Origin: a virus
Reading direction: 5' to 3' (one strand)
IMG/VR virus record: IMGVR_UViG_3300024231_000066
Coordinates: 1 to 21,285 of that record
DNA: 21,285 bases
Shown piece after piece: positions 12,100-20,408 of this stretch. How positions within the stretch are numbered: position 1 is the first letter of the stretch; the number at the start of each line of letters is the position of its first letter. The position numbers and the translations under genes are program-made. A model generated the notes under the pieces. That model worked only from the letters and a program-made list of their open reading frames with translations. It did not search any database and had not been told where the DNA came from.

Positions 12100-13047
12100 C
12101 TAATGTACTTTCGCTTTAAACAGACTACTAACACTTTCTTCATTATTAACTCGTCTGATTGCTTCACCTAACAACCCACAAATTGAAACTGTTCTTGTCT
12201 TTTTACAATCACTAGGACATCTAAATTCAATACTGTCTGTGATAACTAATTCTTCTAGTACACTCTTTTCAACTTTCTTACATGCTTCACCACTTAGAAC
12301 ACCATGTGTAATATATGCTCGTACACTCAGAGCGCCAGCATCTAAAATTGCCTGAGCCGCATTGCAAAGGGTTCCACCACTATCAACAATATCATCTACA
12401 AGAATTGCATGTTGTCCTTTTACTTCACCAATTAAATTCATTACTTCTGCTTTACCGGCTTCTGGTCTACGTTTATCAACGATAGCATAATTGGCATGAT
12501 ACATATCAGCAAACTTTCTTGCTCTTACTGTACCACCAGCATCTGGAGAAACAAATACAATTGGTTCTTCATCTACATTAAGTTGTTTTTTGATATCTCT
12601 TGCAAAAACTAATCTACTTGTTAAATCATCAACGGGTATATCAAAGAAGCCTTGAATTTGTCCAGCATGTAAATCCATTGTTAAGATTCTATCTGCACCT
12701 GATTTAGTAATAAGATTAGCAACAAGTTTTGCAGTAATAGGAGTACGTGATGCACTCTTACGATCCTGTCTTGCATAACCAAAATAAGGAATAACGGCAG
12801 TGATACGTTTGGCTGAACTACGTTTAGCCGCATCAATCATGACCATCATTTCCATTAAATTATCATTTACTGGTGAACTTGTACTTTGTATGATGAAAAC
12901 ATCTTCACCTCTGATGTTATCAAAAAATTCTACACTACATTCTCCATCTGCAAAAGTTTTAATATCAGACGGGACAATATCAGTAAAACAATGTTCAGCA
13001 ATCTTTTCCGCTAAATCTCTGTTACTGTTACCAGCTATAATCTTCAT
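12100..13047 (-). CDS. prs: Ribose-phosphate pyrophosphokinase (PRPP synthetase)
   Basis: Makes PRPP from ribose-5-phosphate and ATP, the precursor for purine, pyrimidine and NAD synthesis. 315 residues from the ATG at 13047, the normal length of class I enzymes; an in-frame GTG at 13056 adds three residues but the family starts MK-I/L-x-AGN, so the ATG is preferred (AAGGTGAGG ahead). Seen: [13 protein letters not shown] at the N-terminus, [15 protein letters not shown], the flexible-loop stretch [18 protein letters not shown], metal site [17 protein letters not shown], and the PRPP-binding loop [10 protein letters not shown]. All key motifs are intact. Likely boosts nucleotide supply during phage replication. 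Driven by a sigma70-type promoter with a symmetric element in its spacer. Confidence 0.95.
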
Positions 13048-13080
13048 AGACCTCACCTTTATGTTACAGTTAATACTGTT

Positions 13081-13119: not shown

Positions 13120-13758
13120 TTAGTAAGTAGTAATTAATTTGTCAGCGATACCGTGCTTGATTGCTTCTTCTGGAGTTAACCAATGGTCTGTTTTAGGTGC
13201 TAACAAGTTCTTACGAATATATGCTTTCGTTTTGCCTGTACATTTAATGTAATGTTCCATTAATTTTTCATTGGTCCAGTCCATATGCTTACGGCTTTCT
13301 ACCATATCATGGTATTGTCCTTTTGTTCCACCTGAGAACTCATGTGACATGACCGCAGTGTTTTGTGTAAGATAACGATGACCTTTTACACCAGACATCA
13401 TCAACATAACTCCACAACTTGCAATAGAACCCATACCGTATGTATAAACTGGAATACGTGACTGTTTGATTGTATCAATTAGATGCATACAACTGTCTAC
13501 AAACCCACCAGGTGAATTGATATACAAGTGAATAGTTTCTGGTGCTTTGTCTTTTGGCATAAGATTGTATTCAATAATCATTTTTACCAAAGGCATACAG
13601 TTGTCTTGATTAAATTCCTTGTCCATGAAAAGAATACCATTATCTTTGCTATACTCGCCTGGTTGCTTGGGTGGTGCCGGCGGCATCGGAGGGGGTGGGG
13701 GAGCAGGCATTTTGGGTTGTTCTTTTGGTAGTGGAATAATTGGTTTATCATTTTTCAT
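13120..13758 (-). CDS. clpP: ClpP-like serine protease
   Basis: 212 residues. The core (about 38-210) aligns with ClpP: IHLYINSPGGFVDSCMHLID (oxyanion/head region), GMGSIASCGVMLMMSG with catalytic S114, VMSHEF with H139, and a TDHWLTPEEAIKHGIAD segment with D191; the triad is complete. Residues 9-33 form a Pro-rich, flexible N-terminal arm not present in typical ClpP, and the usual N-terminal ClpX/ClpA-docking loop is not recognisable. It could work with host Clp ATPases, as a separate peptidase, or in head maturation. It begins 9 nt after the primase stop, with only a weak AGGA site, so it is probably co-expressed with primase. Confidence 0.88.
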   Translation of the reverse strand: MKNDKPIIPLPKEQPKMPAPPPPPMPPAPPKQPGEYSKDNGILFMDKEFNQDNCMPLVKMIIEYNLMPKDKAPETIHLYINSPGGFVDSCMHLIDTIKQSRIPVYTYGMGSIASCGVMLMMSGVKGHRYLTQNTAVMSHEFSGGTKGQYHDMVESRKHMDWTNEKLMEHYIKCTGKTKAYIRKNLLAPKTDHWLTPEEAIKHGIADKLITTY

Positions 13759-16447: not shown

Positions 16448-16826
16448 AAAGCAACAATGGATGCAAGAGAATTATCCGTTCTTCTCATACGTGAGATACG
16501 GAAATAAAAAAGAATTTACAGAGCATCTAGGCATTATAATAAACTCTGACCAAGTAATAACTTCAATGTATAATTTTGAAGCAATACCAACTCCAGAACT
16601 AAGAAAGAAATTTATCGAACTTGGTGAACAATGGTGGTGGGAATCAAATAGACTCATGCCTATAAATTTATTTCTTGGAAATCAAATAAGCCAGTATAAA
16701 AATTGGATTTTAAATATGAATTCTAAGGACACTGAGGTTCTTTGGGGTCCTGCGACTAGTCTATCAAATATTATTCAAAAACGTATCAAGAGGCGTTCTG
16801 TTCAACTTGTTCGCAAAATAGATTAA
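16437..16826 (+). CDS. Conserved phage protein, unknown function
   Basis: 129 residues. Conserved-looking block KKFIELGEQWWWESNRLMPI and a basic C-terminus with KRIKRRSVQLVRK; I recall similar proteins in marine T4-like phages without assigned function. Start overlaps the preceding gene by 11 nt in another frame, so the pair is likely co-translated. Its last 41 nt overlap, tail to tail, the end of the mini-DnaE gene on the other strand. Confidence 0.6.
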   Translation: MDTEKQQWMQENYPFFSYVRYGNKKEFTEHLGIIINSDQVITSMYNFEAIPTPELRKKFIELGEQWWWESNRLMPINLFLGNQISQYKNWILNMNSKDTEVLWGPATSLSNIIQKRIKRRSVQLVRKID

Positions 16827-17391
16827 GCTGAACTACGATACTGACTGAATATGCAAACGCATGTGCTTTCTTAAAAAAATAACTATCATCTTCTGGTTTC
16901 TTCCATACTTCATTACTGATAGTTTCTTTACTTTCATTAAGTAAATGCCTTTTAGCAGGACGAATGACTGCTAGTACTTCTGCTAATTCTTCAATACTTT
17001 GAGGCTTCATTACTTTTAAAACATCTAAATGATTATGAACATGTGCAAGATTTTTAACTACATCCGCATGTTGTAATAAATCCCAAATAGGTTCTTTTGC
17101 AATAAGTTTATCTAAATGTGCTTCATCTTGTATGCCTTCATACAAACTGTTGTTAAGAAAATCTAACTTGAAGTATCCACGTTCCTCTGCTTCTTTATAT
17201 TCTATACTTGAAAGTCCACTAACTGGATCAAAGGGTATAGGTTGAAGATACACGCCACTATTATGTTTTGTATATTCATTCTTCTTTTTTATACTTGCTG
17301 TTATGTGTCGAAAATGTGTTAGCACACTATCTCTATCGATAACATCAATATCTATATCAGTTTGTACTTTCATTTTTTTATTATACATCAT
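16786..17391 (-). CDS. Miniature DnaE (DNA polymerase III alpha)-like protein
   Basis: 201 residues from ATG 17391 (overlaps the upstream stop as ATGA; a TTG at 17397 is less likely). Conserved blocks of bacterial DnaE appear in the right order: DIDIDVIDRDSV (D14, D16; DnaE DFDVDF, D401/D403), KHNSGVYLQP (DnaE KHAGGVVIAP), RGYFKLDFLN (K75, D77; DnaE LVKFDFLGL, K553/D555), IWDLLQ, LKVMKPQSIEELAEVLAVIRP (DnaE LKRLQP...VALFRPGP region) and FKKAHAFAYSVSIVVQLNL (173-191; DnaE FNKSHSAAYALVSYQTLWL). So the three catalytic Asp are kept, but ~90 residues between D16 and D77 are missing, as are PHP, most of the fingers, YQEQ and the C-terminal domains. Full polymerase activity is doubtful. The match is from remembered E. 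coli sequence, not a search. Confidence 0.72.
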   Translation of the reverse strand: MMYNKKMKVQTDIDIDVIDRDSVLTHFRHITASIKKKNEYTKHNSGVYLQPIPFDPVSGLSSIEYKEAEERGYFKLDFLNNSLYEGIQDEAHLDKLIAKEPIWDLLQHADVVKNLAHVHNHLDVLKVMKPQSIEELAEVLAVIRPAKRHLLNESKETISNEVWKKPEDDSYFFKKAHAFAYSVSIVVQLNLFCEQVEQNAS

Positions 17392-17693
17392 TTCCAATAC
17401 ATTGTAAAGTATGCGGCATCATTATCATTCTTAAAATAAAACTTACCTTGATATGCAACATAATGGTCTTGTAAATGACTATTACACCAATCTACCAACT
17501 GTGTTATATGTCCAGCACCCTCTATCATAACTTTTTCGTAGTTGATATTTTCATGAGAAACACATGTCCAGTCTAAGAATTCTTTGTTTTCAAAGTCACT
17601 ATGAAATCGCCTAAGATGTTCAATCTTACCACTTAACTTTCTAAGTCTTTCTAATCTTTCTTTGACATTTGAATGCCTTAACATGTCAGCCAT
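17388..17693 (-). CDS. Early small protein upstream of mini-DnaE, unknown function
   Basis: 101 residues: a basic amphipathic helical start (NVKERLERLRKLSGKIEHLR), then a small folded part ending in the aromatic YVAYQGKFYFKNDNDAAYFT. No recognised family. AGGTG ribosome site and near-perfect sigma70 promoter (TTGACA/TATAAT). Its stop overlaps the start of mini-DnaE, so both proteins are made together and may form a complex. Confidence 0.6.
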   Translation of the reverse strand: MADMLRHSNVKERLERLRKLSGKIEHLRRFHSDFENKEFLDWTCVSHENINYEKVMIEGAGHITQLVDWCNSHLQDHYVAYQGKFYFKNDNDAAYFTMYWK

Positions 17694-17746: not shown

Positions 17747-18388
17747 TTAATTTTTGTGTTTATAACTATGATGGTCGCCATGATCCCACGCCCATGGCAT
17801 AAAAGGTAATAAAAACCAAGCATTATATGGTTTACCTTCAAGATGTCCTAATGTATTTTGCATAGACCCTGAGTGAAATGTATAGATTACGAAAGGAGAA
17901 AGCACAAAACATAATGCTTTAAATTCTATTAACGCCACAATTAATATCAATAATATTTGCAGATAAAACCAATTTTTATGCATCCGCTTTTGAAATTTGC
18001 TACGCACATAGTCTGCAATTAATCTAGGGTGTATACTCTGAGATTTCCAATCTAAAAAGTACACTCTTAGCCAGCCTATGTGTTTAGGTGAATGTGGGTC
18101 TCTTTCTGTGTCTGTGTGTCTGTGATGTTGTCTATGAGAAGCCGCAAAACTAATTGGAGAACCAAGACCTGTTGCCAAAGTCAGAAATGTATATAAGTAT
18201 CCTTTTACTGAGTCCTCATATTTGCCATGTCCAAAGTAATAGTGCATAATATCGCTACCTACAAATTTAGTCCATGCCATACTCGCAAAGAAAATAGCGA
18301 TAGCCCAACCAATATTAAAACCATATAAGTAAATACCAATCGCTAAAACTACATGATGAAACAGTACTATTGCTTGTCCTTTATTCAT
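17747..18388 (-). CDS. Fatty acid desaturase, delta-9-like
   Basis: 213 residues, integral membrane diiron enzyme expected to introduce a double bond into acyl lipids. All three histidine boxes are present: H49-YYFG-H54, H85-RQ-HH89 (with H91), and H203-GD-HH207, plus HLEGKPYN (182-189), which matches the H-x-x-G-x-x-PYD block of delta-9 desaturases. Hydrophobic segments lie at about 8-40, 63-83, 142-170 and 190-200. It is shorter than typical bacterial enzymes (~300), lacking N- and C-terminal extensions. GGAG ribosome site 6 nt before the ATG. A TTGACT at 18423-18418 has only a weak -10 partner, so its promoter is unclear. It shares the upstream region with the divergent radical SAM gene. 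Probably adjusts host membrane lipids. Confidence 0.88.
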   Translation of the reverse strand: MNKGQAIVLFHHVVLAIGIYLYGFNIGWAIAIFFASMAWTKFVGSDIMHYYFGHGKYEDSVKGYLYTFLTLATGLGSPISFAASHRQHHRHTDTERDPHSPKHIGWLRVYFLDWKSQSIHPRLIADYVRSKFQKRMHKNWFYLQILLILIVALIEFKALCFVLSPFVIYTFHSGSMQNTLGHLEGKPYNAWFLLPFMPWAWDHGDHHSYKHKN

Positions 18389-18398
18389 TTTTTCTCCA

Positions 18399-18406
18399 GA
18401 TAAATA
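18399..18406 (+). promoter_or_regulatory. Late promoter GATAAATA for the radical SAM unit
   Basis: GATAAATATATAC on the plus strand, ~35 nt before the ATG at 18441, leaving AAGGAAACC as ribosome site. The only plus-strand late box with a gene behind it in this window. Confidence 0.6.
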
Positions 18407-18440
18407 TATACATATATTTAGTCAATTAAGGAAACCATAT

Positions 18441-19379
18441 ATGGCTCAGGAATTATTCCAATATAAAATAACAGAACCAGAAGACAATACATTTGCAGAT
18501 ATTTTTGCAGACATTACGCATCAATGTAATATGACCTGCAAGAACTGTTACATTCCTGGACGTGATATTCCTGATATGGATTTGGATAAGTTTAAAGACT
18601 TTATGAGTAAATTAGGTGGTAGAGCATTTATACGTATTATCGGTGCAGAACCAACTGTTGCACCCCAATGTGCAGAATTTATTCGTGCAGTATATGAGCA
18701 TGGTAGAACTAATGGAAGAAAGCATAGTTGTACATTAGTAACAAATGGCCTAAGATTATCTCATAAAAAATATTTAGATAAGCTATTTGAAGCAGGATTG
18801 AGAAGTGTCACACTAAGCCTTAATGGAGTAGATAATGACGATTGGTATGAACAAATTGATGAAATGCGTTGTGCTACTAAAAAACTAAAAGCACTACGTA
18901 ACGTAGTCGATAGAAAAATGAACTTAAACACAGGTACAATTATCGTTCCAGAAATTAATTATGAGGCTCCTGCAAGATTAAATGAACTTATTGAACGTGA
19001 AAAAATTAGAAACATAATGATGCGAATTAAAAACGTTGGACAGATTGGAAGATATCAAAAAGACGCAGATGGCAACATTAAATTAGATGGGCTAGTCAAA
19101 CTATGTGCAGACCAATTTAATGTCTCAGAGGACTATATTTGGAGCTTTCACGGTGTACCTTACTATAATAAATTCATCGAAAAGAATAGCATCTTATTCC
19201 CATTAAGAGAGGGTAATAAACTATTAAATAGAGGTCGATGGGTAAAAATAACAAATTGGGATACAGACAATGAAGGTGGTATACCGGATCCCGGAAGTAT
19301 AAGAAGAGGTCGTATCACACAGAATTTCAAACTAGCACCATTCTATGAACACGTAAAAGAAAACGAAGGCGGGTATTAG
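18441..19379 (+). CDS. Radical SAM enzyme
   Basis: 312 residues. The 4Fe-4S site CNMTCKNC (C29, C33, C36; CX3CX2C), the GAEPT segment (69-72, variant of the GGEP SAM-binding motif), TLVTNG (98-103) and LSLNG (126-129) give the complete partial TIM-barrel core typical of MoaA/SPASM-like radical SAM proteins. The C-terminus lacks the Cys cluster of SPASM auxiliary iron-sulfur domains, so it is a single-cluster enzyme. MRIKNVGQIGRY (194-205) is a conserved-looking basic loop. Substrate unknown; peptide, nucleoside or cofactor modification are all possible. It is directly followed (TAGATG) by the gene at 19380, a strong sign of joint function. Confidence 0.87.
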   Translation: MAQELFQYKITEPEDNTFADIFADITHQCNMTCKNCYIPGRDIPDMDLDKFKDFMSKLGGRAFIRIIGAEPTVAPQCAEFIRAVYEHGRTNGRKHSCTLVTNGLRLSHKKYLDKLFEAGLRSVTLSLNGVDNDDWYEQIDEMRCATKKLKALRNVVDRKMNLNTGTIIVPEINYEAPARLNELIEREKIRNIMMRIKNVGQIGRYQKDADGNIKLDGLVKLCADQFNVSEDYIWSFHGVPYYNKFIEKNSILFPLREGNKLLNRGRWVKITNWDTDNEGGIPDPGSIRRGRITQNFKLAPFYEHVKENEGGY

Positions 19380-20408
19380 ATGATAATACATATGCGTGGT
19401 CTGGATATAGATTTAGATAATGAAATAGACATTTACTTTCTACATGAACGTGTAATGTATGATAAAGTAAAGCAACTAGAATCTTTATCTGATACCGATA
19501 TATATACTAAAATATTTAAAAAAGAAGTTCAAAAAACATATCTTTGCAAAGTCAATGAGGGCAGTTATAACACATTTAAAAATGTAGTGCATACTTACGA
19601 TGAAGAACGTTTCGAAAATGTAAGCAAAGACTTTACGATGTGTTGGAAAAAGACAGACAAAGAGTATGATACTCTTATAATAAATCTAACTAGTTTTGCA
19701 GGACACGAAGGTAGACTAACAAGCCCTCTAACAAATGTTAGTGATAAAATAATAAATTTAGACACTGACTTACTAATTGTCAATGAAGACCCTTTTAGAT
19801 TTCCAGAAAGTCTATATCCTAGTGCAATGATTCTTGGTGTTAGCAAAGATAATGATACACAAGAAAAAACGTGTAATCAAATACGAAAGTATATAAAGAA
19901 AGATTATAAAAACGTTATCATCTATGCGGATTCAAAACATGCCGGTAGTGCAGTAAGCATTGCATATCATCTAAAAGATATTGTAACAAATGTACTTGTT
20001 ACTGGTGGACAAACTACATATTCCTGGGATCATTCACCATGGGTTAAACGTTATATGAAATGGCATAATAGACCAATAGAGTTATCAGACCAAACTTTAG
20101 ATATGACTGATGTTGCTATTATATCAATGATAAAAGGTTGGGGGTACAAAAAACTAAACATCAAATCTGAAATTCTAGACCCTTTTAGATTCTTAAATGA
20201 ATATCCAAATATTAGAGTAGATTACCTTTACGGGAAATATGATAGCGACTACTATCCATTTTTAGAATATATAAGGCAGTTTGACTACAAAAATTTACAT
20301 ATACAAGAGATAGACTATAAAATATCAGAAACACAAAAGCACAATATAAGACCTTATGTCGATAGAAAATTGCTTAAGAGTTATGTAGATAATCCTCCAA
20401 AGCCTTAA
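19380..20408 (+). CDS. Possible alpha/beta-hydrolase-like protein, coupled to radical SAM
   Basis: 342 residues, no family recognised with certainty. The segment KNVIIYADSKHAGSAVSIAY (177-196) resembles a strand-nucleophile elbow-helix (G-x-S-x-G type, here with S185 in YADSKHAGSA), followed by TNVLVTGGQTTYSWDHSPW and later VDYLYGKYDSDYYPFLEYI, where an acidic residue could complete a triad. A short motif is used twice: EDPFRFPESLYP (136-147) and LDPFRFLNEYP (~265-276). N-terminal ~130 residues are unassigned. The ATG follows the radical SAM stop with no gap, so it is probably part of the same pathway (hydrolysis, transfer, or substrate carrier). Its last 35 nt overlap the convergent gene. 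Confidence 0.55.
   Translation: MIIHMRGLDIDLDNEIDIYFLHERVMYDKVKQLESLSDTDIYTKIFKKEVQKTYLCKVNEGSYNTFKNVVHTYDEERFENVSKDFTMCWKKTDKEYDTLIINLTSFAGHEGRLTSPLTNVSDKIINLDTDLLIVNEDPFRFPESLYPSAMILGVSKDNDTQEKTCNQIRKYIKKDYKNVIIYADSKHAGSAVSIAYHLKDIVTNVLVTGGQTTYSWDHSPWVKRYMKWHNRPIELSDQTLDMTDVAIISMIKGWGYKKLNIKSEILDPFRFLNEYPNIRVDYLYGKYDSDYYPFLEYIRQFDYKNLHIQEIDYKISETQKHNIRPYVDRKLLKSYVDNPPKP

Follow-up and report, generated by a model that had tools for sequence, protein, structure and literature searches.

Alkyne pathways of the JamA/JamB/JamC type combine a ligase, a desaturase, and an acyl carrier protein (ACP). The phage genes described below resemble them in the joint occurrence of an acyl-AMP ligase, a membrane desaturase, and an ACP; they differ in being viral and in adding a radical SAM enzyme (rSAM), a halogenase, a carbamoyltransferase, and an alpha/beta-hydrolase, and no acetylenase activity is claimed for them. 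Mitomycin assembly is ACP-dependent and involves the ligase MitE, the ACP MmcB, and tailoring enzymes, the radical SAM enzyme MitD being proposed to act in scaffold assembly (PMC8621148). The phage genes share with it a ligase, an ACP, ACP-dependent tailoring, and a proposed role for a radical SAM enzyme. However, mitomycin assembly is bacterial and AHBA-based, whereas the phage genes are viral and come with desaturases, a halogenase, and a ketosynthase.

Phages are known to have acquired individual metabolic genes, halogenases and the occasional ACP among them. The flavin halogenase VirX1 comes from cyanophage Syn10 (PMC8407142), and tryptophan halogenases occur in cyanophages (PMC10452541). 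The halogenase of the relatives discussed here is likewise a phage-encoded member of the Trp_halogenase family, but it is only about 30% identical to named-phage halogenases and shares its operon with genes for an acyl ligase and a ketosynthase. Pelagimyophages are reported to carry radical SAM cassettes in a host-recognition region (PMC7029224). These are also variable radical SAM gene cassettes of marine phages, but the passages describing them give no link to an ACP or a hydrolase, and the present locus belongs to a jumbo phage. The literature searched, in which subscription papers and preprints were thinly covered, yielded no description of a viral carrier-protein assembly line.

The phage and its radical SAM and hydrolase genes

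The stretch of DNA analysed (21,285 nucleotides, hereafter the window) is part of a marine jumbo phage, the named phages nearest to its helicase and to its DnaE-like polymerase piece being the jumbo phages PA5oct and Atu_ph07. Its relatives are metagenome-derived and include a contig of 342 kb (G394), the helicase of which is 88% identical to that of the window. The polymerase piece (16786-17397, minus strand) is separately encoded, its 203 residues matching the DnaE-like polymerase family (PHROG 11778, 2e-72). Genes that by eye look like a PRPP synthetase and a ClpP protease (12100-13056 and 13120-13758, minus strand) lie beside replication genes. The features under study are the following.

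17747-18388, minus strand (divergent): short, desaturase-like membrane protein; it has three histidine boxes (HX4H, HX2HH, HX2HH) and an NCBIfam DesA match (6e-7) far under the cut-off
18399-18406, plus strand: predicted late-promoter element GATAAATA; the rSAM start follows 35 nt downstream
18427-18432, plus strand: Shine-Dalgarno-like TAAGGA ahead of the rSAM ATG, read directly from the sequence
18441-19379, plus strand: single-cluster radical SAM enzyme, 312 aa, with 62 viral relatives
18525-18548, plus strand: codons of the CX3CX2C motif (C29, C33, C36), at least 90% conserved in 32 homologues
19379-19380, plus strand: rSAM/hydrolase junction, zero gap; site of an ACP gene in sister phages (5941-6177 in L005), empty here
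19380-20408, plus strand: alpha/beta-hydrolase, 342 aa, proposed thioesterase or acyltransferase
19932-19934, plus strand: codon of Ser185, the proposed nucleophile, which the model puts at a strand-helix elbow
20241-20243, plus strand: codon of the proposed acid Asp288
20340-20342, plus strand: codon of the proposed His321

An earlier note on this DNA had described a complete single-cluster radical SAM enzyme, followed without gap by a protein with a possible nucleophile elbow and preceded by a late promoter, and these elements were all borne out. The rSAM reading frame is intact up to its stop codon (19377-19379), scores 58.4 bits against Pfam Radical_SAM (PF04055; cut-off 29.5; E 1.3e-15), and contains one copy of the cluster motif C29-x3-C33-x2-C36. 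Together with the barrel found in the structural model (pLDDT 88.3) and by Foldseek, this places the protein in the radical SAM superfamily. No auxiliary-cluster cysteine motif is visible in its sequence, and across 32 rSAM sequences the only near-invariant cysteines are C29, C33, C36, and C144, the last of which could, as a guess, be a hydrogen donor. Nearly all members of the family in the collections searched are viral, and the gene is under purifying selection (pN/pS 0.13-0.17).

The closest folds are MoaA, the top structural match, and tetraether lipid synthase, which are also nearest when the rSAM profile is compared with solved structures (5.8e-22 for the latter). The enzyme shares the CX3CX2C barrel with MoaA, Tes/GDGT-MAS, and TrsS (TIGR02666, NF045702, NF045646), its best structural or profile matches, but it falls far under all their curated cut-offs, lacks visible auxiliary-cluster cysteines, and has an invariant Cys144 and a C-terminal region of its own with a conserved RRGR motif. 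An identity as MoaA (GTP 3',8-cyclase) was rejected at 56.9 against 284 bits, the C-terminal half having no CX2C...C motif. Tetraether lipid synthase (Tes) was rejected at 38.2 against 450 bits and at 312 aa against about 500 aa, and a SPASM/twitch maturase on the absence of C-terminal auxiliary-cluster cysteines from the 32 sequences.

The hydrolase gene is complete as well, starting with the ATG at 19380. Its sequence had no significant match in Pfam, PHROG, or PDB, but the PDB matches listed by Foldseek for its model (pLDDT 79.5) and the top viral matches were all alpha/beta-hydrolases. All 11 homologues in alignment A2 share S185 (in a YADSKH elbow), D288 (YGKYD), and H321, ordered as a catalytic triad requires. 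Fold and ordered triad place the protein in the alpha/beta-hydrolase superfamily, contrary to the possibility, allowed for earlier, of a structure unrelated to hydrolases. Purifying selection acts on this gene too (pN/pS 0.29-0.35). Gene order beside ACP and ketosynthase genes suggests that it may encode a thioesterase or an acyltransferase acting on carrier-bound acyl groups. Named phage records contained relatives of neither rSAM nor the hydrolase.

As for the promoter, ATAAATA is the most start-enriched of all 7-mers in the window (p 2.7e-10), with nine of its 12 sites found, in sense orientation, in the 70 nt before a gene start, a zone that makes up 4.8% of positions. Counted without regard to position, neither TATAAATA nor ATAAATA is enriched in the window, both being at chance level. 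Diverged relatives also have GATAAATA ahead of rSAM; it is missing in L063, L068, L069, and L076, where an oxygenase gene runs straight into rSAM, as is expected within an operon. A TATAAATA-like element just upstream of late genes is the mark of a T4-type late promoter, and GATAAATA has this form and position, supporting a predicted late promoter ahead of the rSAM gene.

Carrier proteins and other neighbours

Six-frame HMM searches detected an ACP gene placed precisely between the rSAM and hydrolase genes of sister phages (L005, L008, L034, L038, L007, and L010). It encodes 78 residues with a GVDSLDS serine motif, and its PP-binding domain with the DSL serine exceeds the PF00550 cut-off (1.4e-13 for PF00550 in L012). 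The two genes abut without an ACP in the window, L032, L033, L039, and L041, so that the window pair is a reduced form of an rSAM-ACP-hydrolase cassette. No ACP gene was found in the 21-kb window; this being a fragment, the phage may still carry one elsewhere. Among 18 phage contigs, several of which are close relatives, nine of the 11 ACP matches lie directly downstream of the rSAM gene. Another phage group (L042) has the order rSAM-ACP-hydrolase-hydrolase, rSAM is also followed by an ACP in L044, L053, L056, and L057, and an ACP lies within a few genes of rSAM in L063 and L091. Proteins with an SDCK motif, which could be hydrolases with a cysteine nucleophile, come immediately or one gene after the ACP in L053, L056, and L057. 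Homology between this family (K76) and the window hydrolase is only suggestive (hhalign E 0.0018, 15% probability).

When the viral rSAM loci were grouped at 90% identity into 30 phage clusters, a gene of the Fe/2OG-type oxygenases lay at most two genes from rSAM in 22 of them (families K1 and K2; Pfam Asp_Arg_Hydrox for K1, weak for K2). An ACP occurred within a few genes in seven of the 30, and so did, in seven, the family of the divergent desaturase-like protein, a gene that the earlier note had overlooked. The oxygenases are the more widespread partners, while ACP and desaturase-like genes recur in several groups. The desaturase-like family is found near rSAM in L063, L065, L067, and L091; the relative in L003 matches Pfam FA_desaturase at 0.003, under the cut-off.

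The idea of a compact cassette of biosynthetic type was upheld, but not that of a dedicated two-gene unit, the two genes being split by an ACP in sister phages. Recurrent pairing holds in part: 14 of 20 hydrolase loci adjoin rSAM or its ACP, whereas the hydrolase occurs with no rSAM beside it in six sister contigs (L097-L100, L107, and L111), and a hydrolase of the window type is absent from most of the 62 viral rSAM loci. Since the two genes are found apart, strict pairing fails.

A different cassette built on the same rSAM family is present in L047, L050, L054, and L113, where rSAM is followed by IMPDH/GMP-reductase-like and short AMP-ligase-like proteins and, in some of them, preceded by a class IV aminotransferase and a B12-type radical SAM protein. 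With one rSAM group beside such genes, the substrate may differ among phages.

Acyl-carrier genes in phage relatives and an acyltransferase operon in bacteria

Three ACPs are encoded in the 342-kb relative G394, along with a holo-ACP synthase (phosphopantetheinyl transferase), an acyl-AMP ligase, and a FabF-like ketosynthase. After the ligase gene come, in turn, genes for a Trp_halogenase-family protein (4e-88), a short desaturase-like protein, an unassigned GNAT-like protein, a desaturase, and the ketosynthase. The order ligase-halogenase-GNAT-ketosynthase, often with desaturases, recurs in nearly all of the 27 viral loci found by a halogenase search, although, being shared by descent, these do not count as 27 independent observations. 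In relatives of this jumbo phage, the conserved operon, made up of genes for the ligase, the flavin halogenase, one or more desaturases, the GNAT-like protein, and the ketosynthase, is represented by L168-L194 (the 27 loci) and by L155 (8104-14551). L182 has a window-hydrolase homologue (6.5e-66) that directly follows the ketosynthase gene and overlaps its end, which, on gene order, would be an independent tie of the hydrolase family to carrier-protein chemistry. The ligase-ketosynthase operon lies about 30 kb from an rSAM-ACP-hydrolase-hydrolase run on a single contig (G400) and about 160 kb from the rSAM cassette in G394. No named phage with a ligase-halogenase-ketosynthase operon was found; ketosynthase and ligase matches in named phage records were set aside, being mostly unannotated fragments in records of host-like appearance.

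Bacterial homologues of rSAM were found at two diverged loci, one in the BD1-7 clade (L114, 7929-11991) and one in genome G028 (L119, 13-4045). Both have an operon of rSAM, a heme-oxygenase-like diiron protein, an MBOAT acyltransferase, and a fourth protein, the composition of which suggests acyl transfer to an exported molecule. Several hundred genomes contained no further cellular homologues than these and a near copy of L114 in G057.

Proposed acyl pathway and alternative readings

We propose, with a probability of roughly 0.55, that rSAM and the hydrolase are expressed late and belong to an acyl pathway that is phage-encoded and depends on a carrier protein. The acyl-AMP ligase would activate an acid for loading onto a phage ACP, itself made holo by the phage phosphopantetheinyl transferase, and the FabF-like ketosynthase would optionally extend the bound acyl group. 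The tethered acyl would then be tailored by rSAM with desaturases and Fe/2OG-type oxygenases, after which the alpha/beta-hydrolase would release or transfer it through its Ser-Asp-His triad. In this scheme, the rSAM substrate would be ACP-bound, judged from gene order alone, the hydrolase would act on a thioester, and the separate gene sets would form one pathway. With no ACP at its locus, the window copy would need one elsewhere in the genome, as in the 342-kb relative, or a host ACP. As a guess, the product would most likely serve to decorate the envelope or virion glycans with acyl groups, or be a small molecule.

The observations beneath this proposal are the gene identities, the rSAM-ACP-hydrolase order in sister phages, the pathway genes in the relative, the selection on both genes, and the late promoter. 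We count in its favour the ACP between the genes, the recurrent rSAM-ACP order, the G394 gene set, the L182 arrangement, the bacterial MBOAT operon, the Tes/MoaA profile matches, and the mitomycin precedent. Counted against it are the empty junction in the window and several close relatives, the gap of about 160 kb in G394, the six hydrolase-only sisters, the many rSAM loci without ACP or hydrolase, the rSAM group found beside IMPDH-like and aminotransferase genes, and the quite different substrates of the nearest rSAM relatives of known function. The earlier note had rightly held that the substrate is not readable from the window; among its candidate targets (virion protein, lipid, DNA base, or metabolite), the wider context speaks for an acyl or lipid-like metabolite rather than for DNA-base modification.

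The prevalence of Asp/Asn beta-hydroxylase-like oxygenases in 22 of the 30 clusters would also fit a post-translational modification of a protein such as a tail fibre, with the hydrolase as unrelated cargo. Late expression suits virion maturation, several rSAM loci adjoin what by eye are likely tail-fibre or glycosyltransferase-like genes, and the pelagimyophage cassettes are reported to lie in a host-recognition region (PMC7029224). Yet neither auxiliary cysteines of the SPASM/twitch type nor a precursor peptide were seen, and protein modification accounts neither for an ACP lying between rSAM and hydrolase nor for the position of the hydrolase behind the L182 ketosynthase; we judge it unlikely. 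A shade less probable is that the genes have no joint function and are independent cargo of a variable locus, abutting after loss of the ACP and each working with host pathways. The hydrolase does stand alone at the same site in the six sister contigs, and desaturase, oxygenases, and ACP come and go; against this, both genes are under purifying selection, the rSAM-ACP adjacency recurs in divergent phages, and the hydrolase family is also tied to the ketosynthase operon.

The least probable of these alternatives, and a quite doubtful one, has rSAM acting on a nucleotide or nucleoside, as MoaA-like or BlsE-like enzymes do, whereby a nucleotide or DNA base would be modified. In its favour, the best structural match is MoaA, the genes after rSAM in L047, L050, L054, and L113 are IMPDH-like and AMP-ligase-like, and 2OG oxygenases and carbamoyltransferases are known in phage base-modification systems. 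But the score is far below the MoaA cut-off, a second cluster motif is missing, the thymidylate synthase of the relatives looks ordinary by eye, a base-hydroxymethylating enzyme was not noticed in the same inspection by eye, and ACP, desaturase, and ketosynthase would have no explanation.

Returning to the acyl pathway, a more tentative extension is that these jumbo phages encode an assembly line (ACP, transferase, ligase, ketosynthase, halogenase, desaturases, rSAM, oxygenases, and hydrolase) making a halogenated or unsaturated acyl product late in infection, the window pair being its tailoring and release module. If true, a virus encoding loading, activation, elongation, tailoring, and release would possess a viral biosynthetic gene cluster with its own product. 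The radical SAM family defined by the cassette is largely viral and has a clear, testable candidate substrate class, namely ACP-bound acyl groups.

Elsewhere in G394, several more radical SAM proteins, one of the twitch-domain type (6.7e-131), occur in a run with oxygenase-like genes (L140, 5598-16641; about 95-107 kb in the contig), with a carbamoyltransferase (L141) nearby. A second, FAS-type ACP (L142, 4210-6364; about 32-34 kb) lies beside Fe-S assembly-like genes that by eye resemble HscB and IscA.
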